Below are positions 1 to 19,454 of a DNA stretch of 29,686 nucleotides, piece after piece. Made by a program: the position numbers and the translations under genes. This DNA comes from a virus: positions 1 to 29,686 of IMG/VR virus record IMGVR_UViG_3300032285_002621; one strand, given 5' to 3'. Within the stretch, counting starts at the first letter, position 1. Every line of letters starts with the position of its first letter. The notes below the pieces were generated by a model, which made no database searches, had not been told where the DNA came from, and saw only the letters and a list, made by a program, of their open reading frames with translations.

Positions 1-828
1 ACCGAATCCAGTTTGGATTGCTGTAGCACCAGCAACTGCTTTCAATACTACGTCAGTAGCACGGTTAGCAGGCAAGTACAATGTGTTCATCTCTACTGAA
101 CCACGCATTGCGTGACCAATAGCACCAGGAACGAAAACAGCGGCTGTTGAGTCGTTGCTTGATACTGGAACTAAACTTGATTCAAACACTTGGATACCAG
201 CAACTGTACCGATATAGAATCCACCAAGGATGCTGTTACCGATGTCGCTTGGGTTAGCAACATAACCACCTGAGTAGTATGCTGGAGTTGCCAATTGCTT
301 CTTCAAGTTGTAAGCCGCACCTGGGTGTACAACTGCGTAGAAAGGACCAGTCAACTTGCGTGAACGCAATGTAGCGGCCGCTTGTAACAAGTCAGCAACT
401 ACTAATTCGTGACCTGTACCACCTAAGTCAGTAGTGAAGTTAGCGAATGTTGAGAACACTTGGCTGTCCATTGACTCAGCAATAGCACGGCCTGATTGGT
501 CACCAATTTGTGCGAATACATTGCTGTAGGCGCTGTCACGCAATTGGTCAGTGATTTGATGGTAAACAACGTGTTCAGCAAGAGTAATAGTTGCTGAAGT
601 TGTGTTTGTTGTCTTTGCTGTAGCGGCTGATTCATCAGTGATTAGGTCAGCAGTTACTGAACTCCAAACTGGAACTTGTAGGTTCAAGCCTGTGTTTAGT
701 GGTGCGTCAAAGATTGTAACTAATTGACGAGCAACTGATTGCTCATAAGCGGCGAACTGAGCGGCTGTTACCAGGTTCGCGTACAGTTCATTGTTAATAT
801 TGGTATTGTTATTTGATGGATATGACAT
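1..828 (-). CDS. Major capsid protein (HK97-fold type), C-terminus cut by the window edge
   Basis: This gene encodes the shell subunit of the phage head. The visible 276 codons start at an ATG preceded by AAGGAAA at good spacing and run in frame to base 1 with no stop, so the C-terminus lies outside. The N-terminal region is Asn/Thr-rich (MSYPSNNNTN), followed by text typical of aquatic-phage capsid proteins: a helix ending ARQLVTIFDAPL, a beta-rich stretch of T/S repeats (ATAKTTNTTSATITLAEH), a spine-helix-like segment near residues 105-125, and a P-domain-like stretch (GPFYAVVHPGAAYNLKK). It lies directly downstream of the scaffold gene with a 19-nt gap, the usual order. The fold is inferred from family resemblance and position; no single diagnostic residue proves it. 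Confidence 0.85.
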   Translation of the reverse strand, partial: MSYPSNNNTNINNELYANLVTAAQFAAYEQSVARQLVTIFDAPLNTGLNLQVPVWSSVTADLITDESAATAKTTNTTSATITLAEHVVYHQITDQLRDSAYSNVFAQIGDQSGRAIAESMDSQVFSTFANFTTDLGGTGHELVVADLLQAAATLRSRKLTGPFYAVVHPGAAYNLKKQLATPAYYSGGYVANPSDIGNSILGGFYIGTVAGIQVFESSLVPVSSNDSTAAVFVPGAIGHAMRGSVEMNTLYLPANRATDVVLKAVAGATAIQTGFG

Positions 829-847
829 CTTATTTTCCTTTTAAGAA

Positions 848-1528
848 TTATCTACTTTGTTGACTTTTCCAGTTAGCATAAACTTTACGATCACTCGCTT
901 TGCTCATGTCTAACTTGGTAATATCAATTTGTTGAGATACTCCTTGAGAACCCATTGCGCTCTTTGTCTGTGTTGTACTTGGACCTGCGGCCACGAAGTG
1001 AGGATTCGCATCCAGGAAGGACTTGACAAGATCCTCCACTCCCATTGGATCTCCGCTATCTTTGTAGCGAGTAGTTCCATTGTTATCTACAACTTCAACT
1101 TCACCGTCTTGAGTTAGTCTAATGTTTTGTCTTAGGAGAGCCTTGACTTGTTCTGGTGCCACGGCACGATACTTTGCGGCTGTCTCTAATAGGGGACTAT
1201 CAACACGGTATTGAGCAATAATTTGATCTCTACGAGCAATCTCTGCGTCTTTTTTCGAAGCCATCTCTTTAAGAATTGTATCAAAATCACCTTTGCTTTT
1301 TTGTTCTTCAAACTTCTTGTTTTCTATCTGACTTTTAATGGTCTTCAATTCTTCCAAGTCGCCTAAGCCTTCAAATTGCTTGAGTACTTTGCGTTCAACT
1401 GCCGCACGGGTTTTGGCCATAGCGTCATCGAATTCTTTCTGAGAATAAAACTTCTCTTGTGCCTGTCCTTCGTCTTCAAGACCAGTGTCAGTTACTGTAG
1501 TTGTTGCCAATGTTTGTTTTAGGTCCAT
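848..1528 (-). CDS. Head scaffolding protein
   Basis: This 226-residue protein probably chaperones capsid assembly and is lost from the mature head. It is highly charged. An acidic N-terminus is followed by a Lys/Glu-rich, coiled-coil-prone region at about residues 28-110, then a helix with the pattern SPLLETAAKYRAVAPEQVKALL, and a disordered Gly/Ser/Gln tail ending in a basic cluster (SDRKVYANWKSQQSR). This layout (coiled coil, then the AAxKYxAVAPxQV helix, then a basic C-terminus that binds coat protein) is that of phage scaffold proteins encoded just before the coat gene. A GGAGG lies 11 nt before the ATG, slightly far, with a closer AGG. A TATAAATA motif sits 35 nt upstream, so this gene and the capsid gene may have their own late transcript. 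Confidence 0.8.
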   Translation of the reverse strand: MDLKQTLATTTVTDTGLEDEGQAQEKFYSQKEFDDAMAKTRAAVERKVLKQFEGLGDLEELKTIKSQIENKKFEEQKSKGDFDTILKEMASKKDAEIARRDQIIAQYRVDSPLLETAAKYRAVAPEQVKALLRQNIRLTQDGEVEVVDNNGTTRYKDSGDPMGVEDLVKSFLDANPHFVAAGPSTTQTKSAMGSQGVSQQIDITKLDMSKASDRKVYANWKSQQSR

Positions 1529-10446: not shown

Positions 10447-11529
10447 TTAACTTAATTTTGTGATTTTTACAGTACCGTCACGGCGAGATATTCCATAAGA
10501 ATTATCGCTTTGATTTCTAAGACTTAGATTTTTTGTTCCAGTCAATGTAAATCGACAAGTAATAGTTCCATACCAGGCTGGAATCCCAGCATTACTATAT
10601 CCATAATTTGTAGGTTCTATACTATCTTTTATGTAGGTATCATCGGTATCATTCCATATCATCCAAGCACCATAGTTGTTATTAAAAGCATGGGCCGCCG
10701 CTATTTCCATAAGCCATGTACCAGCAGGAATAGTAAATGAATTTTGATAGGCTGTTATGCCAGTTCCGCCATCATTAATTACTTGCCAATAATTAAGTGT
10801 TTTAGATCCTGATGAATTATTAAAGAAAATTGATTGGAAAGGAACATTGGAAGCATTAACAGATAAAAGAATTGCTGTTGGAGTTCCGCCACCTGCTGAA
10901 CCACTGGCAATAGAAGTTACACGACCATAATTATCAACAGTTACATTGGCCGTAGTATAAGTTCCAGCAGTGAGACCACTTATGGTTGCCAAATCAATAA
11001 TTGGAGCACGAGGTACAGTTGAATCCACCACAATCCTATTACTGGTACCTGTGACCAATTTTACAATATCTCCATTGATCCATTTGCCCAAAGGCACACT
11101 ATAGACCAAACCTTGAAACATAGTTGGGCTTTGAATATCTGTATCGGTTAAACCAGTTAAGGTGCTGGCTCCTGCTTCACCAGCATCTCCTTTATCACCT
11201 TTGGGTCCTGCTGGACCTCTATAATCTTCGCCACTTGGATCACTTCCAGTGGCAGTACCGCCATCCTCGATGCCGGTTGTTGTGACAGCACTATTGCCGC
11301 CATCTAAATTCGTTGTTAGTCCTATGACTAATTGATTGCCAACAACTTCAGTAATAATCTTTGATCCACCAGCAATGGTGAATGTATCATTAAGGCTACC
11401 TGATATAGTACCTGAATCACCTGCTATGCTAATAGAGGCATTGTCTAAGTTACTAAAATTATTGTCTAACTCTGTACGAGTTAATGGTGCGCCTTTGCTG
11501 GCGCGGGTTACTATCACTGGCTTGGTCAT
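10447..11529 (-). CDS. Tail fibre: shared anchor, short collagen-like stretch, C1q/TNF-like jelly-roll tail
   Basis: This 360-residue protein has the N-terminal anchor shared by three genes here (TKPVIVTRASKGAPLTRTEL, then DNNFSNLDNA). A short collagen-like run, about five Gly-X-Y triplets (GPAGPKGDKGDAGEAG), occurs near residue 105. A Gly/Thr-rich region then leads to a C-terminal domain of about 140 residues with FTIPAGTWLMEIAAAHAF and ITCRFTLTGTKNLSLR, a pattern like C1q/TNF-type jelly rolls of phage fibres. It is likely a trimeric fibre or head/tail decoration. The gene starts on an ATG with AAAGGA upstream, just below a GC-rich hairpin that separates it from the collagen gene. Confidence 0.7.
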   Translation of the reverse strand: MTKPVIVTRASKGAPLTRTELDNNFSNLDNASISIAGDSGTISGSLNDTFTIAGGSKIITEVVGNQLVIGLTTNLDGGNSAVTTTGIEDGGTATGSDPSGEDYRGPAGPKGDKGDAGEAGASTLTGLTDTDIQSPTMFQGLVYSVPLGKWINGDIVKLVTGTSNRIVVDSTVPRAPIIDLATISGLTAGTYTTANVTVDNYGRVTSIASGSAGGGTPTAILLSVNASNVPFQSIFFNNSSGSKTLNYWQVINDGGTGITAYQNSFTIPAGTWLMEIAAAHAFNNNYGAWMIWNDTDDTYIKDSIEPTNYGYSNAGIPAWYGTITCRFTLTGTKNLSLRNQSDNSYGISRRDGTVKITKLS

Positions 11530-11598: not shown

Positions 11599-13614
<2,016 letters not shown>

Positions 13615-14202: not shown

Positions 14203-14910
14203 TTAAGAAAACTTCAGTCTTGCGGTTGTGATGAATAATTGAAAGCCATCGTTAGGTGATAAAAAGGTATCAATCAATGAGGTACCGGGGTCTTGCGAAT
14301 CCCAAGCAATAAAATTACCTACATTACTATGTACAGGATTACTTAAATTATAAGTTGGTGTATTAGAATAAGATATATGTGCGGCAAAACTAAATTCAAC
14401 ATATTTGCCTGTAGCAGTTTGTAGATGAGCAGGAATACCCTGTGCTGTAACTCCGCTACGCACACTATTACTGATCTGTATATCTTCAGCAGTAATAGTA
14501 GTGTATGAATAACCTACTGATAAAATCATCAAACCCATATAACTTGAACCACCAGCAGTACTGCCTGTATCCACGTTTATACCATTGATTCCGCCTGACT
14601 CAGATCCGGTTAATTTTTTATAGGCTATTTGTGTTCTTTGACCCGTGCCACTTGTTGGAGTTACTCCACTATTGATTAAACTGGTATAGCCTGTAGGTAG
14701 TGTTGCGGGCGCTGGTATGCCACCATAGGATGAAGAAAACATACACAATATTCCCACACTATTGGCCTGTATACCTGATGGATAAGTGACTGTTGGATAA
14801 CTATGAAAACTTGGATAATTATCAGCCCATACACCAGTTAGACTACTGGTATAAGGTGTGCCTGTTCCGCCTACACTATTGAATAGGCTTAAATGTCCCA
14901 TGCCAATCAT
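14203..14910 (-). CDS. Beta-rich virion or fibre protein, unknown function (235 aa)
   Basis: This 235-residue protein is rich in Ser, Thr, Gly and Tyr. It carries a pattern of unassigned phage surface proteins: IQANSVGILCMFSSSYGG, then PTGYTSLINSG, AYKKLTGSESG and SYMGLMILSVGY. That layout (exposed sandwich, 'P.GYT.L..' loop, 'YK.LTGsEsG' strand, hydrophobic 'MILSVGY' strand) recurs in proteins encoded among fibre genes. No signal peptide or membrane helix is clear. Its ATG overlaps the stop of the upstream fibre gene (TAATG). A second in-frame Met at codon 4 is possible. A receptor-binding or fibre-tip role is inferred from neighbours. Confidence 0.6.
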   Translation of the reverse strand: MIGMGHLSLFNSVGGTGTPYTSSLTGVWADNYPSFHSYPTVTYPSGIQANSVGILCMFSSSYGGIPAPATLPTGYTSLINSGVTPTSGTGQRTQIAYKKLTGSESGGINGINVDTGSTAGGSSYMGLMILSVGYSYTTITAEDIQISNSVRSGVTAQGIPAHLQTATGKYVEFSFAAHISYSNTPTYNLSNPVHSNVGNFIAWDSQDPGTSLIDTFLSPNDGFQLFITTARLKFS

Positions 14911-15848
14911 TAGACAAATCCTTTAACTAAACTGGCAAGATAGTAACCATTAATATAGGTAATGTATAAAACATCAATGGCTCCGGGACTTGTGCTTAAT
15001 GCTTTGCTACCGCCCGCAAACTTCATTCCGCTGGTTAATGTACGTGATCCTGTTGAATCTTGAATCAACAATAAGGTAACACTTTGACCGTAGGCTACAT
15101 TACCAGTATTGAATCCGTTAATTGTAATGTTGCCAGTCAAGGTCATAATTTGTATACTGGCTTCAGTAGCATCTGGTGTAAATGTACTGACAAATGATTT
15201 AGTAGTGGATTGTTCTCTATATGATGTAGGCCAAACTTGTCCTGTAACTGTAAGTGCTGGATAGATATTAACAAGAGCGGAACCATTGCCGGCTAAGGTA
15301 ATACCGCTTTTATACCCACCATTCAGTGTGGTTTGTATGGCAAGGTCAGTGTAATTGCTGGATTGTATAAAAGCAATATTGGCACCACCACTATTGGGAG
15401 TTTCGCTACCTGCTATCAAAGCAATACTACTACCATAGGTGCTGTTGACCTTGAGACCAAAATTACCATTGCCTGTAGATCCAAGTGTGTAATAGTTGCT
15501 AACAACTGGCACGCCGCCACCGCCACTTGAACTGATAACTCCACTGCCGTTTATTGTAATTGTTGTACCATCTACCTTAACACCACCCAATTGAGTAGTC
15601 GTGGCAGTTGGCAATGTATAAGAATAGGTATTGGTAACAGTAATAGCGCCTGTCGAGGCATTAACACCCAGGCTCATATTAGTGCCTGCTGTAAAGGTTA
15701 TTCTGTCATTTAGATTGAAGTCATGGCTATTCGTGCCGTCAGTAACTCCAAAGGTAGCATTTTGTAAATTACTAAAATTAGTATCTAATTGCTGATATGT
15801 TAAGGCTGTGCCCTGTGTAACTCGATTTGTAATTACGGGTTTTGTCAT
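14910..15848 (-). CDS. Tail fibre with shared N-terminal anchor
   Basis: This 312-residue protein opens with the same anchor as two genes downstream (TKPVITNRVTQGTALTYQQL, then DTNFSNLQNATFGV). A beta-repeat shaft follows, with PTATTTQLGGVKVDGTTI and GSGVISSSGGGG as in classical phage fibre repeats. The C-terminal 100 residues end VTLLLIQDSTGSRTLTSG, then MKFAGGSKALSTSPGAIDVL and YLASLVKGF, a frequent terminal trimerisation or tip domain of phage fibres. It is the first gene of the fibre block, with ribosome site AGAGGA, and is preceded by a candidate late promoter and a terminator-like hairpin. Confidence 0.75.
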   Translation of the reverse strand: MTKPVITNRVTQGTALTYQQLDTNFSNLQNATFGVTDGTNSHDFNLNDRITFTAGTNMSLGVNASTGAITVTNTYSYTLPTATTTQLGGVKVDGTTITINGSGVISSSGGGGVPVVSNYYTLGSTGNGNFGLKVNSTYGSSIALIAGSETPNSGGANIAFIQSSNYTDLAIQTTLNGGYKSGITLAGNGSALVNIYPALTVTGQVWPTSYREQSTTKSFVSTFTPDATEASIQIMTLTGNITINGFNTGNVAYGQSVTLLLIQDSTGSRTLTSGMKFAGGSKALSTSPGAIDVLYITYINGYYLASLVKGFV

Positions 15849-15895: not shown

Positions 15896-16417
15896 ATTAA
15901 AAGAGCGAATTGCTTCGCTCTACATCTGCGATAAGTCTTTCGCTTAGTCGCTCAAACTTATCTTGATGTTGTTTGTCTTTAATATTATGTAGGGCAACTT
16001 ACAGTCAGACGGAACCGTTTTGCTCGGTTCCATCTTTTGTCATTATGTGAGGGTTTCACAGCCAAGACATTAGGAAGCAGGTATTTGTTTATCCACTTGT
16101 TGCTAAAGGGCTCTGATCTTTCCCTACCCGCATCGACTCGCATAAGCGCCTTAAGACTCGTTCCTCAGTTTCTTAAGTTTTTATAGCCAAGTGTTTCGTA
16201 TGCTAACATTCATACTATGACAATACTTAACTCTCTTCCGATTTTTCAGGATAGTGGATGTCTCTCCACGGGAGTGTCTCATCATGTTGCGTGTCTGGTT
16301 ATTCCCCAGTTTTTCCACAGCGGTATTACAAACCGGCCCGCCAACCTTAGGTGTTAGATAATAGTGCCTTGGGAAATTGCCATTTGAAGTTTGCCTGCCA
16401 TGTTTGCCTCTGTAATA
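15896..16417 (-). ncRNA. Candidate long structured non-coding RNA, about 520 nt
   Basis: No credible gene lies at 15849-16596. The minus strand of this stretch is full of stems: GTGGA/TCCAC (16254-16258 with 16265-16269), CTTAAG/CTTAAG (16150-16155 with 16172-16177), TGTGA/TCACA (16046-16050 with 16056-16060), a 10-bp stem (16008-16017 with 16025-16034), a 7-bp stem (15930-15936 with 15956-15962) enclosed by CTACAT/ATGTAG (15920-15925 with 15987-15992), and a final 8-bp hairpin. The 10-bp stem contains a U-G pair on the minus strand that would be a C-A mismatch on the plus strand, favouring minus. An extended -10 box lies just upstream at 16424-16432 and a hairpin plus TTTT ends it. Size, phage context and fold suggest a large ornate RNA of the GOLLD/ROOL kind, but I cannot match a family from memory. 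Confidence 0.5.
15897..15921 (-). terminator. Terminator-like hairpin at the 3' end of the candidate ncRNA
   Basis: AGAGCGAA (15902-15909) pairs perfectly with TTCGCTCT (15914-15921) over a TTGC loop. On the minus strand the stem runs into TTTTAAT, a short U-tract. On the plus strand no U-run follows. The hairpin separates the structured region from the fibre block promoter motif at 15863-15874. Confidence 0.5.
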
Positions 16418-16423
16418 GTATTT

Positions 16424-16464
16424 AGTATAACACAAAAAAATGCCCTGGAAAAGAGACTTGTCAA
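16424..16464 (-). promoter_or_regulatory. Leftward promoter region: extended -10 TGTTATACT and a TTGACA box
   Basis: On the minus strand TG-T-TATACT (-10 hexamer at 16424-16429) forms an extended -10 element that would start RNA near 16417. A perfect TTGACA lies at 16459-16464, but 29 nt from this -10, too far to be its -35; at 17 nt from TTGACA stands only ATTTTT. So either the extended -10 works without a -35, or the TTGACA is part of an operator. Direction away from the plus-strand genes and toward the structured RNA is clear. Confidence 0.5.
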
Positions 16465-16528
16465 CCGAAAATTGTCGTTTTTTTACAACATATTTTGGTT
16501 TCTTTTTTGGGCGTTTTCTGTTGACAAG
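16457..16528. repeat. Inverted 9-bp repeats carrying the two divergent TTGACA boxes
   Basis: CTTGTCAAC (16457-16465) and GTTGACAAG (16520-16528) are perfect inverted copies, 54 nt apart. Each contains a TTGACA reading outward. The shared three flanking bases go beyond the promoter hexamer, which suggests a protein binding site, for example a repressor that could loop the two promoters together. Confidence 0.6.
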
Positions 16529-16549
16529 ATTAGCCCAAAATGCTATAAT
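16521..16549 (+). promoter_or_regulatory. Perfect sigma-70 promoter for the plus-strand cassette
   Basis: TTGACA (16521-16526), a 17-nt spacer, then TATAAT (16544-16549): both hexamers and the spacing match the consensus exactly. RNA should start near 16556, about 41 nt before the first gene at 16597. Such a perfect promoter points to early expression by host RNA polymerase. Confidence 0.9.
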
Positions 16550-16596
16550 CATGACATGGATAAGCAATAGTGCGTATCCAAAATTGGAGAAACAAA

Positions 16597-16878
16597 ATGG
16601 CAACAACACAAGAAGCATTATATTACCCACATTTGGTTAAGACTTTGGAAGAAAGACAGAATCCAAACTTGACCGCTGTCCAAAAACGCAAACTAACCAA
16701 AAGACTCAAAAATCAAGTCCGTGGTATGTATGGCTATGAAGCATTAGAACATTTAGATGATGTTTTGAAAATGGTTAAGGCTAATAAATTAACCTTGACA
16801 GCCGAATTATTAACCAAATTGTTGGCTTTTATAATTCACCAAAAAGCCTTATTGGCTCTTGACACAGAGTCAGTTTGA
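16597..16878 (+). CDS. Small basic helical protein, unknown function (93 aa)
   Basis: First gene of the plus-strand operon. The start is fixed by GGAGA six bases upstream of the ATG. Longer in-frame starts upstream lack a ribosome site. The product is helical and basic in its first half (VQKRKLTKRLKNQVRGMYG) and ends in a hydrophobic helix (AELLTKLLAFIIHQKALLAL, residues about 68-87) that is not clearly a membrane segment. I recognise no domain. It sits directly behind a perfect promoter, as early phage takeover genes do. The second perfect promoter of the operon overlaps its last seven codons. Confidence 0.65.
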   Translation: MATTQEALYYPHLVKTLEERQNPNLTAVQKRKLTKRLKNQVRGMYGYEALEHLDDVLKMVKANKLTLTAELLTKLLAFIIHQKALLALDTESV

Positions 16879-16887
16879 CAGTATAAT
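16859..16887 (+). promoter_or_regulatory. Second perfect sigma-70 promoter, overlapping the end of the first gene
   Basis: TTGACA (16859-16864), exactly 17 nt, then TATAAT (16882-16887). The stop codon of the first gene lies within the spacer. RNA should start near 16894, about 49 nt before the next gene. Two perfect consensus promoters 338 bp apart imply that genes from 16943 on need more or differently timed transcript than the first gene. Confidence 0.88.
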
Positions 16888-16892
16888 AATTA

Positions 16893-16921
16893 CATACAGA
16901 CAGCATATCGCATACTGTATG
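16893..16921 (+). promoter_or_regulatory. Operator-like inverted repeat at the second promoter's start site
   Basis: CATACAG (16893-16899) and CTGTATG (16915-16921) are perfect inverted 7-mers separated by 15 nt, starting at the predicted first transcribed base. It could be a repressor site or the foot of a 5' UTR hairpin. The order ACAG...CTGT is the reverse of a LexA box, so LexA control is not supported. Confidence 0.45.
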
Positions 16922-16942
16922 ACACACAGAGAAAGAGTTAAA

Positions 16943-17206
16943 ATGGCTAATTTAACACAAGATCAAAAACGCGAACTCGTTGAGTTTTTCGCAGACCACG
17001 CACAGGCAAGAGCAGATCACGAAGACACAGCGGCTTCGATTGCGAGTGCGGAAATGGTAACACTTATCCCCACTATCAACTCCGTTGAAGAATTGTACAA
17101 GGCAATTCGTCGTAACTTTGACGACTATGCTGAGACATTTTGCTTTATGGAAGAGTATAGTGCTACTACACATGAATTGGTTGCTGAAATGGAAGAGGTG
17201 ATGTAA
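16943..17206 (+). CDS. Small acidic protein, unknown function (87 aa)
   Basis: The start at 16943 is chosen because AGAGAAAGAG precedes it; an in-frame ATG at 16919 lies inside the operator-like repeat without a ribosome site. The product has about 19 Asp/Glu against about 6 Lys/Arg, is largely helical, and ends SATTHELVAEMEEVM. Small acidic proteins from early phage operons often bind host enzymes or mimic DNA, but nothing here identifies such a role. Its stop overlaps the next start (TAATG), so the two are translationally coupled. Confidence 0.65.
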   Translation: MANLTQDQKRELVEFFADHAQARADHEDTAASIASAEMVTLIPTINSVEELYKAIRRNFDDYAETFCFMEEYSATTHELVAEMEEVM

Positions 17207-17415
17207 TGGATAAGATTGATCATATCAAATATCGTGCCGCTGAGATTGCTAAACTTACTTGCCAATTGAGCATTTGTTTTGATGAAGAACTCAAAGAAGA
17301 GATTATTCATAATATTAAATGCCACCAAGCAGTAATAGAAGAAATTAAAAATCCTTATACTGTAGAACGCATCAAAGAAAAGTTTGGTGTAGACTTAACT
17401 CAATTTGAAGCATAA
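17206..17415 (+). CDS. Small helical protein, unknown function (69 aa)
   Basis: It starts on the TAATG overlap with the preceding gene. The product is helical (IKYRAAEIAKLTCQLSICF, then DEELKEEIIHNIKCHQAVIE) with two or three Cys that are not in a metal-site pattern, and ends TVERIKEKFGVDLTQFEA. No family is recognised. The coupled start, matching codon use and compact spacing support it as a real gene of the operon. Confidence 0.65.
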   Translation: MDKIDHIKYRAAEIAKLTCQLSICFDEELKEEIIHNIKCHQAVIEEIKNPYTVERIKEKFGVDLTQFEA

Positions 17416-17416
17416 T

Positions 17417-17560
17417 ATGAATCAAGAACTAATGGATCAGGCTTGGTTTATGGCTTGTGAGGCAGAAGGCTACGCAGATGGCGAGGTGCCTCTTTGGGCT
17501 GTACAAATGGTCAGTGACACACAAATGGAAATCTATAATCAATTGGAGACCGAAGAGTGA
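17417..17560 (+). CDS. Very small protein, unknown function (47 aa)
   Basis: It begins one base after the preceding stop codon (TAA T ATG) and ends in a GTGA overlap with the lipoprotein gene. The product is acidic and rich in Met, Trp and Gln: it starts NQELMDQAWFMACEAEGYAD and ends QMEIYNQLETEE. The coupling on both sides supports real translation. No function can be assigned. Confidence 0.6.
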   Translation: MNQELMDQAWFMACEAEGYADGEVPLWAVQMVSDTQMEIYNQLETEE

Positions 17561-17772
17561 AAACAGCACTACTCCTAACTTTGCTTTTAAGCGGGTGCGG
17601 AATTATTCCCACTCAAGAAATTAAAGGCACAGATGGTCGCACCTATACTTGGATTGCGCCATTTCCCTCAACATCAAACGGCGAACAAGGCATTGGTGGG
17701 CGTAGTGCTTCTGTGACTACCTATACTGGTACTGTAAATGGCAGAGGCTATAGTGTTCAGTCATTTCGATAG
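17557..17772 (+). CDS. Small lipoprotein, possibly an Rz1-like or surface lipoprotein (71 aa)
   Basis: It starts at GTG (GTGA overlap with the preceding stop) after GGAGAC. The N-terminus has a Lys, a Leu-rich core and a lipobox LLSGC with Cys14 as the lipidated residue, so signal peptidase II processing and membrane attachment are expected in a Gram-negative host. The mature 58 residues are Gly/Thr/Ser-rich (GTDGRTYTWIAPFPSTSNG, and then SASVTTYTGTVNGRGYSVQS), without the Pro-rich character of classical Rz1. No Rz or lysozyme partner is adjacent. A superinfection-exclusion lipoprotein is an equal alternative. Confidence 0.7.
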   Translation: MKTALLLTLLLSGCGIIPTQEIKGTDGRTYTWIAPFPSTSNGEQGIGGRSASVTTYTGTVNGRGYSVQSFR

Positions 17773-17791
17773 GGTTTTTTTTGCTTTGTGC

Positions 17792-17803
17792 TAAATATAG
17801 TAT
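17792..17803 (+). promoter_or_regulatory. Candidate late promoter motif (TAAATATAGTAT, plus strand)
   Basis: This 12-mer is identical to the one before the fibre gene at 15848, here in the 42-nt gap before the gene at 17815 and followed by GGAG. It overlaps the ribosome-binding region closely, so a transcript starting here would have a very short leader. That is a caution against, or a special feature of, a promoter role. Confidence 0.4.
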
Positions 17804-17814
17804 AGGAGAACACA

Positions 17815-18195
17815 ATGCCATTAGAAAAAGGAAAAAGCAGACCACGCGATCCCACAAAAAAATATAACAAAGGTGACCCACGACCTCATGTTTGGTTGTG
17901 TGGTGAGGATCCATATAAACATTCGATGTACATACCTTGGCTCAAAGCCAAAGCACAGGCAAATTATCGAGATGAAGGATGGGATTTATCTTTTGATAAT
18001 TTTTACGAACTATGGCGAGAAAATTGGCATCAACGCGGTAGAGAAGCCGATGATGTTGTCATGACACGAGAAGATGTACAAGGACCGTGGGATAAAAAAA
18101 ACACAATTCTAATGACACGAAAAGAACACTTACAGCGTCAGGGAATGTTTCAACGAGGTAAAAAGAGAGGACCAAGAAATGGCAAAAGAAATTAA
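17815..18195 (+). CDS. HNH-endonuclease-like fold without an obvious catalytic His (126 aa)
   Basis: The start is set by TAGGAG before the ATG. The product is basic. A middle region, WDLSFDNFYELWRENWHQRG, is followed by VVMTREDVQGPWDKKNTILM and TRKEHLQRQG. The order 'R-x-D-x-x-GPW-x-x-x-N-x-x-x-x-TR-x-E' is the C-terminal half of HNH-type and related small nuclease or DNA-binding domains common in phages. The usual catalytic His-His pair before it is not visible, so activity is doubtful. The C-terminus is a Lys/Arg tail that could bind nucleic acid. It overlaps the next gene by 17 nt. Confidence 0.55.
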   Translation: MPLEKGKSRPRDPTKKYNKGDPRPHVWLCGEDPYKHSMYIPWLKAKAQANYRDEGWDLSFDNFYELWRENWHQRGREADDVVMTREDVQGPWDKKNTILMTRKEHLQRQGMFQRGKKRGPRNGKRN

Positions 18196-18586
18196 GTACA
18201 CCGCAAGAGGTTTAACCAATAGTAATAACGAGTATGTTACTATTGACGCAGAAGACATGGGCTATCTTATGAATCAGATAATCCGCACTATGGCTACCTA
18301 TAGTGAATTAACAGCCATGTCAAATGGTGCTGGTATTGTTTGTAACAGAGACAAAGAACTATTTGGCAAGCGTGGCAAGACTGACATTGCCCCGGGCAGA
18401 GAAAACACACGCCTAAGTGTATTAGGTGGTTTGGTAAACAATTATTTTAACAAAGACGAGAAGTTTAAGAACGACATTAGTTTAGGACAACTGCCTTATA
18501 TCATGACTGTCTTAAACGAGTGTGCGGATCAGTTTGGATATGAACCAATTACATTCCGCAATCAATTATTTGACTGGGGAAAGTAA
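18179..18586 (+). CDS. Unknown protein (135 aa) of the plus-strand cassette
   Basis: It starts inside the end of the preceding gene, with GAGAGGA as ribosome site. The product begins AKEIKYTARGLTNSNNEYVT, has helical segments (AEDMGYLMNQIIRTMATY; RENTRLSVLGGLVNNYF) and ends PITFRNQLFDWGK. It looks like a compact, soluble globular protein without signal or membrane helix. I recognise no domain. It is coupled to the next gene by a TAATG overlap. Confidence 0.65.
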   Translation: MAKEIKYTARGLTNSNNEYVTIDAEDMGYLMNQIIRTMATYSELTAMSNGAGIVCNRDKELFGKRGKTDIAPGRENTRLSVLGGLVNNYFNKDEKFKNDISLGQLPYIMTVLNECADQFGYEPITFRNQLFDWGK

Positions 18587-18837
18587 TGCCTAAGAATAGT
18601 ATGTTTGGAGATTTTGATCCATACGAAGTAATCATTGCTATGGATGTAAAACTGGGTCAACTTGTTGAAGCACATAATAATTTGGCTAAACAATGTGAAC
18701 AAAATAAAAAAGACTTCGATGTACTACTTCACAGCCATCAAGTAAATCAGCAAAGCATTGTTCAACTTAGCCATAACAACAATGAATTGTTCAAAGCATT
18801 ACAGACCTGTTTAGAACACATTCAGAATCATCCATAA
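18586..18837 (+). CDS. Small coiled-coil protein, unknown function (83 aa)
   Basis: Last gene of the operon, starting on a TAATG overlap. After about 20 residues (NSMFGDFDPYEVIIAMDVK) the rest is one long Gln/Asn/His-rich helix with hydrophobic heptads (LGQLVEAHNNLAKQC; QSIVQLSHNNNELFKAL), so it probably oligomerises. No family is recognised. The stop codon is followed at once by the A-run and the hairpin that terminates the opposite strand. Confidence 0.6.
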   Translation: MPKNSMFGDFDPYEVIIAMDVKLGQLVEAHNNLAKQCEQNKKDFDVLLHSHQVNQQSIVQLSHNNNELFKALQTCLEHIQNHP

Positions 18838-18863
18838 AAAAACACCCTACGTGGTAGGGTGTT
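18836..18863 (-). terminator. Strong intrinsic terminator for leftward (tail module) transcription
   Basis: AACACCCTAC (18841-18850) pairs perfectly with GTAGGGTGTT (18854-18863) over a 3-nt loop. On the minus strand the 10-bp stem runs into a T-tract (18840-18836, extended by the last two stem bases). On the plus strand only AAAATC follows, so termination of the small-gene operon here would be weaker. It ends the tail module transcript just before it would run antisense into the operon. Confidence 0.85.
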
Positions 18864-18880
18864 AAAATCGGAGAATTTTA

Positions 18881-19025: not shown

Positions 19026-19454
19026 TTATTTATCTTGTTCGCGATTTAAGTGCTTGAAAAAGACATTTTGTATTTGTACCGAGCCAGTTACTAATTCACC
19101 ATCCGGACCTACAGCCTTTTGACATTTCCTACATATTGTTCGCCAATGCGGTTTTGGTGATTCATAATATTTGTATTGGATAATTTGGTTGGTAGCAATT
19201 TCACCGCAACCAATTTCACATAACTTAACAACAGGTTTAAGTTCTTTCAAGACAAAAGGAAGTGAGGTATTGTACTCAACTTCCTCTTCTTCAATTATTT
19301 CTTCTTCACCGAAATCATTTTCTATAATTTTGGTTACTTTTTTTGGTGGCTTCTTTTTCTTTGATCCAGACAAACAGCCGTTTGGACCCACATCATTGCC
19401 ATCGATTACAACGGCTACCTGTTCTACAAATTGTCTAAGTTTTTTCGCATCCAT
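19026..19454 (-). CDS. Zinc-ribbon-like protein, unknown function (142 aa)
   Basis: Last gene of the tail transcript. Residues 79-83 (CEIGC) and 108-111 (CRKC) give a Cys-x3-Cys plus Cys-x2-Cys set that would bind zinc. A basic patch (SKKKKPPKKVTK) is followed by an acidic run (EEEIIEEEEVEY) at about 31-60, likely disordered. The ribosome site is weak. An upstream out-of-frame ATG overlaps the start. I recognise no family. Its position suggests a late, tail-linked or packaging-linked role, but it could equally be a regulator expressed with the late genes. The four-way RNA fold ends 3 nt after its stop. Confidence 0.6.
   Translation of the reverse strand: MDAKKLRQFVEQVAVVIDGNDVGPNGCLSGSKKKKPPKKVTKIIENDFGEEEIIEEEEVEYNTSLPFVLKELKPVVKLCEIGCGEIATNQIIQYKYYESPKPHWRTICRKCQKAVGPDGELVTGSVQIQNVFFKHLNREQDK

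Follow-up and report, generated by a model that had tools for sequence, protein, structure and literature searches.

The gap between two transcription units in the window, that is, the whole 29.7-kb IMG/VR virus record analysed here, encodes on its minus strand a folded RNA under selection, RNA-B, which is best read as a new family among the large phage RNAs. The window, from a phage of lake water, carries genes for terminase, portal and tape-measure proteins, indicative of a tailed phage, and its closest named terminases (51–53%) belong to Pelagibacter phages and to Phage DSL-LC06, which comes from a Chinese lake. The stretch from 16417 to 15896 is flanked by a rightward unit of early type, which has a perfect TTGACA-17-TATAAT promoter at 16521–16549 and its first gene at 16597, and by a leftward unit of tail genes (15848); the original prediction of an ORF-poor minus-strand stretch between these units was right as to gap, strand and coordinates. 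From 16401 to 15900, the longest ATG-initiated ORF of the minus strand has 52 codons, and a GTG frame that is open from 16630 to 16181 on the same strand is judged to be accidental. A coding gene in the gap was rejected, as it holds small frames only and the relatives carry stops and indels. Moreover, the RNA body itself bears the marks of noncoding sequence, namely, stops at several codons, changes that spare the stems, and a deletion of ~56 nt in L062 and L074.

RNA-B extends from a promoter to a terminator-like hairpin (Table 1), and it occupies a slot that lies after the tail genes. In all 13 loci that have the slot start, this begins with TAAATA (as CTAAATA or TATAAATA), just after a T-run. 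We take the box to be like a T4 late promoter in form, the spacing between box and start being as in T4 late promoters, and similar boxes are found upstream of the window units at 1528, 14114 and 15848 (minus strand) and 17815 (plus strand). The extended −10 box previously placed upstream of the RNA shows no conservation among the relatives, and the TAAATA box is the better promoter reading. The short ORF that follows may be vestigial or a leader; in its place, relatives carry other or longer ORFs of up to 86 aa. At the 3' end, a hairpin with the motif GAGCG..AGCGAA in 7 of the 10 members precedes the terminator-like hairpin (15921–15902), the stem of which varies in a compensatory manner (AGAGCGAA/TTCGCTCT, AGAGTGAA/TTCACTCT and AGAAGAAC/GTTCTTCT). 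Thus, the conserved box and the covarying hairpin bear out the proposal of a promoter and a terminator belonging to the RNA itself; of the final hairpin and U-run that had been described, the former stands, whereas the latter is short (UUU). As a separate observation, the phage that carries these T4-late-like TAAATA boxes has tail genes resembling those of siphoviruses.

Table 1. Positions of RNA-B, its parts and related elements (window numbering unless a locus is named)
Feature	Position	Strand	Remarks
RNA-B	15898..16413	minus	predicted transcript ~515 nt; conserved from promoter to terminator hairpin; homologues, covariation
Late-type promoter box CTAAATA	16419..16425	minus	predicted start ~16413
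Conserved TAAATA box	16424-16419	minus	
15-codon ORF MAGKLQMAISQGTII (stop included)	16354..16401	minus	after GAGG
Conserved RNA-B body	15972..16384	minus	96% identity to L075 (alignable columns), 75-98% to other homologues
Helix 1	16319..16342	minus	16342-16338 with 16323-16319; two-sided changes at 3 pairs
Core closing helices	15989..16318	minus	16318-16315/15992-15989 and 16290-16286/15998-15994; largely invariant, n=10
Helix 3	16295..16309	minus	CUGG/CCAG; variants CUAG/CUAG, CCGG/CCGG
Helix 5	16217..16285	minus	16285-16276 with 16226-16217; 5 covarying pairs
Helix 6	16198..16215	minus	hairpin GUAUG-AAUGUUAG-CAUAC
Helix 7	16150..16177	minus	7-bp hairpin, 5 covarying pairs
Helices 9 and 10	16077..16131	minus	outer 16131-16127/16081-16077, inner 16125-16122/16110-16107
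Helix 13	16007..16035	minus	10-bp stem that includes the U-G pair
3' tail hairpin with GAGCGACTAAGCGAA	15930..15962	minus	motif also seen in Polynucleobacter-1 RNAs
Terminator-like hairpin, short U-run	15902..15921	minus	compensatory changes among relatives
Third RNA-like occupant of the slot	L064 4645-5170; L085 (OR003941.1) ~720-1290		few sequences
Polynucleobacter-1 loci	L087-L205 and L047		
RNA-A	L047 3985-4100; L031 1306-1420		

The original prediction was to be judged by homologues in virus contigs and by covariation among them. Relatives were gathered via neighbouring genes and short DNA patterns, and the same RNA body is present in 12 other IMG/VR contigs; after merging (3300037189_007512, at 100%, belongs to the window's own virus, and two contigs closely repeat L075), these give 10 distinct sequences, including the window, and they differ by paired, compensating changes rather than by random or coding divergence. 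A pattern scan of bacterial genomes did not find RNA-B, and a similarity search of named phages by DNA returned only chance matches of 22 nt. Of 24 hits in one search, most were attributed to chance, but those in L047 and in L043, a contig that also appears as L066, are real; the pattern matches in L082 and L083 were likewise taken as chance, there being no similarity to RNA-B beyond the pattern.

The folding energy of the minus strand is −141.6 kcal/mol (z = −3.7), a value that none of 100 shuffled sequences attains; the plus strand folds less well (z = −1.8), also as an alignment. An alignment of ten sequences (the window, L061, L062, L065, L073, L074, L075, L077, L078 and L079) yields a consensus structure with 13 helices and 69 pairs, in which 98.3% of the cells pair, and 22 pairs and 55 cells show two-sided changes; none of 500 shuffles does as well, and sliding the partners by one to three columns lowers the pairing to 33–43% and leaves at most two pairs with two-sided changes. 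In a phylogeny-aware test limited to the named structure, seven structural pairs reach E < 0.05 with these ten sequences, and structural pairs are strongly enriched over other pairs; the null was generated with an in-house script rather than R-scape, using a G-test with background correction and substitutions replaced along the tree. Within the fold, the apical part of helix 5 is shorter in L062, L073 and L074, and the 10-bp stem singled out earlier for its U-G pair is confirmed (16035–16026/16016–16007), with U-G in eight sequences and C-G in two. The CTACAT/ATGTAG helix (15925–15920 with 15992–15987) is indeed present in the window, L065 and L073, but in these alone, and the exact 3' domain proposed around it is unsupported. 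Moreover, it competes for bases with helix 16318–16315/15992–15989, which is invariant in all ten sequences; the CTACAT/ATGTAG pairing is, therefore, at best an alternative state. Overall, a covariation-supported fold within a conserved noncoding unit agrees with the claim of a large structured phage noncoding RNA on the minus strand.

RNA-B matches no Rfam family. Specifically, the covariance models for GOLLD, ROOL and OLE gave no match in the window up to E 10, neither ARAGORN nor Rfam found a tmRNA and Rfam found no RNase P RNA in the window, and the window lacks tRNA genes, although the record may be a fragment. Sub-threshold hits to SSRC8, ceN54 and mir-2818 in the window, and to skipping-rope in L077, were judged to be chance. 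The Rfam comparison put forward in the original prediction thus gives no match to any of the five named RNAs; membership of GOLLD, ROOL or OLE is not upheld, and its alternative, a new class, is consistent with the lack of a match to any catalogued family. GOLLD and ROOL are, like RNA-B, large, multi-branched, phage-encoded and without known function (PMC12286853). However, many GOLLD RNAs exceed 800 nt, whereas RNA-B is shorter; and GOLLD and ROOL are frequently, if not universally, found near tRNA genes, whereas RNA-B has no tRNA neighbours in the 29.7-kb window. A homo-oligomeric RNA cage is a further mark of GOLLD and ROOL, which RNA-B may or may not share.

The slot is not reserved for RNA-B. 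In most relatives (L061, L062, L065, L073, L074, L075, L078 and L080), the gene 3' of it encodes a glycosyltransferase and lies on the opposite strand, and the RNA is, therefore, not a leader, riboswitch or cis-regulator of that downstream gene. In L047, the slot holds a Polynucleobacter-1 RNA (RF01718; 73 bits), the only Rfam match in a run on every relative, and its 3' tail is identical to that of RNA-B in L062 at 51 of 51 nt. L064 and DSL-LC06 share a third RNA-like occupant, with a CGGGGTTAAAAC..GACCCGTCC hairpin and CCAAGGACATAAA common to L064 and L085, whereas L071 has a gene of 247 aa in the slot. Polynucleobacter-1 would be the only named member among these apparently interchangeable large phage RNAs at one locus. 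It is conceivable, although we propose it only tentatively, that RNA-B, the full-length Polynucleobacter-1 RNA and the RNA of L064 and DSL-LC06 belong to a single functional class of large RNAs made late by phages, swapped in the manner of allelic cassettes at a fixed locus, widespread in freshwater phages and possibly forming RNA-only particles.

Polynucleobacter-1 RNA is known as Rfam family RF01718 (Weinberg 2010, PMC2864571). Its core pattern is present in at least 120 virus contigs, and the conserved sequence that follows is kept at 114 loci, including L047, among the matches listed; six matches in bacterial genomes, with titles naming Pseudomonas, Vibrio and Flavobacteriales, are assumed to be chance. 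The RNA extends past the 141-nt Rfam model, with 26 further pairs showing two-sided changes in an alignment of 53 representatives: the full-length RNA is ~450–500 nt, and RF01718 is only its 5' third. Among the matches listed, the tail motif is found in 47 of 100 copies, compared with 1.5% of control stretches, and an upstream ORF can be read for 103 copies, 90 of which lie after a gene for a SegE-like GIY-YIG homing endonuclease; one such protein matches PF19835 (SegE_GIY-YIG) at 4e-32.

RNA-B might be a divergent member of the Polynucleobacter-1 family, related by common descent of the whole RNA. We regard this as a doubtful but reasonable possibility, and one that is compatible with the explanation favoured below. 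The two RNAs have in common the promoter slot (in L047), the 3' tail hairpin with its GAGCG..AGCGAA motif, a similar total length and the order ACYC..AUAAUG-hairpin-GAC..CU..AUAAU; Rfam defines RF01718 without the tail hairpin or the slot. On the other hand, the bodies give no significant alignment, the GGCUAWAAA motif and the UUAGC hairpin are differently ordered, and RF01718 usually follows a SegE-like gene, whereas RNA-B does not. RF01718 has no match in the window, L062 or L077 (gathering threshold 37 bits), and our own 3'-domain covariance models, R1 and R2, give no significant cross-hit in either direction (E-values rough); the best window hit of the Polynucleobacter-1 model lies in exactly the expected register, with 3.2 bits and a rough E of 0.48. 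Given the lack of a significant cross-hit, we treat the bodies as distinct families that share a tail and a slot.

The RNA-B body is 95.9% identical between the window and L075, whereas the corresponding proteins are far more diverged (TerL 65%, portal 50% and TerS 52%), which argues that RNA-B moves horizontally; the body of L062 is 77% identical to that of the window, and neighbouring proteins are mostly 60–90% identical. On the evidence of these sequences, the history of RNA-B is separate from that of the genome. Taking these observations together, we consider it probable that RNA-B is a late, stand-alone, trans-acting structured phage RNA, a scaffold or decoy belonging to an interchangeable set that is spread by recombination. 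A small tailed phage (~30 kb) would transcribe it late, from the TAAATA-type promoter, and transcription would stop at its own hairpin terminator. The product would be a folded RNA rather than a peptide, in which long-range helices close a multi-branched core and an exchangeable 3' tail hairpin and the terminator follow. It would presumably act in trans by binding a protein or ribonucleoprotein of the host or the phage, as a scaffold or decoy, which is also the suspected role of GOLLD, and pass between phages as a unit by recombination. A scaffold or decoy function seems most likely by analogy with GOLLD, the level of which goes up in the course of phage lysis and which is reported to bind ribosomes in pull-downs (PMC12286853). 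Like RNA-B, GOLLD combines a conserved part with one that is less so.

Alternatively, RNA-B could belong to the mRNA of the small upstream ORF, as a structured 3'-UTR or leader controlling stability or translation in cis. The GAGG ribosome site and ATG that follow the promoter are consistent with this, as is the place of Polynucleobacter-1 elsewhere, right after a SegE-like gene; in L073, L075 and L077, an ORF of 53–86 aa (apparently related in L075 and L077) directly precedes the body, which may have a 3'-UTR role there. We nevertheless think this unlikely, as in most members the ORF is unrelated or reduced to 9–36 codons, whereas the RNA body is conserved regardless; a cis-element would not be expected to keep one body beside many different ORFs.

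Structured RNAs also lie beside endonuclease genes in HEARO and other endonuclease-associated RNAs, and an endonuclease neighbour is a feature of Polynucleobacter-1 relatives. RNA-B might be a mobile element, an endonuclease-related intron or homing cassette in which the RNA aids its own spread as a ribozyme or recombination target. The body does move between divergent phages, the gene after RNA-B in L074 is endonuclease VII-like, and, by analogy with its SegE-associated Polynucleobacter-1 counterpart, RNA-B could be linked to homing. However, neither group I or II introns nor HEARO have an Rfam match, no split gene or 3' exon was seen at the loci examined, and RNA-B comes with a promoter and a terminator of its own and occupies one kind of slot, with no endonuclease adjoining it in the window; hence, we hold this reading to be improbable. 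A zinc-finger gene interrupted by the RNA (..KHSNTQGWWASSKYHC.. in L079 versus KHSNHQ..KYHCLTCNK in L064) was suggestive only, its 3' exon not being found. Finally, that the stretch is a decayed gene or chance-structured spacer, as the accidental frame at 16630–16181 and the small-ORF remnants might hint, is scarcely credible given covariation beyond the shuffled and slid controls and 75–98% conservation in noncoding sequence.

Phages have so far yielded few large structured RNAs, and RNA-B, a stand-alone late RNA on the reading that we prefer, adds a covariation-supported family. By slot and tail, it is tied to an orphan Rfam motif that occurs in many virus contigs and has about three times the length of its model. 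Related phages with different RNAs at the same promoter amount to a natural swap experiment, and the function can, therefore, be sought in the features that these RNAs have in common.

The neighbourhood has further features. The plus-strand region 16521–18870, between RNA-B and a second element, RNA-A, holds a perfect sigma-70 promoter and a cassette of rightward genes; the cassette is missing at that place in L065, L064, L066 and L047, where RNA-A adjoins the slot. RNA-A (19024–18909, minus strand) is a structured element of ~115 nt directly after the gene at 19026–19454; it has no Rfam match at the gathering threshold, and is found in nine phages, among which its end stem covaries and TACAGCCATT is conserved. 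Additionally, the tail gene at 11599–13614 (minus strand) encodes long collagen-like GDKGDKGD repeats, and the N-terminal start of its product resembles those of genes 10447–11529 and 14910–15848.
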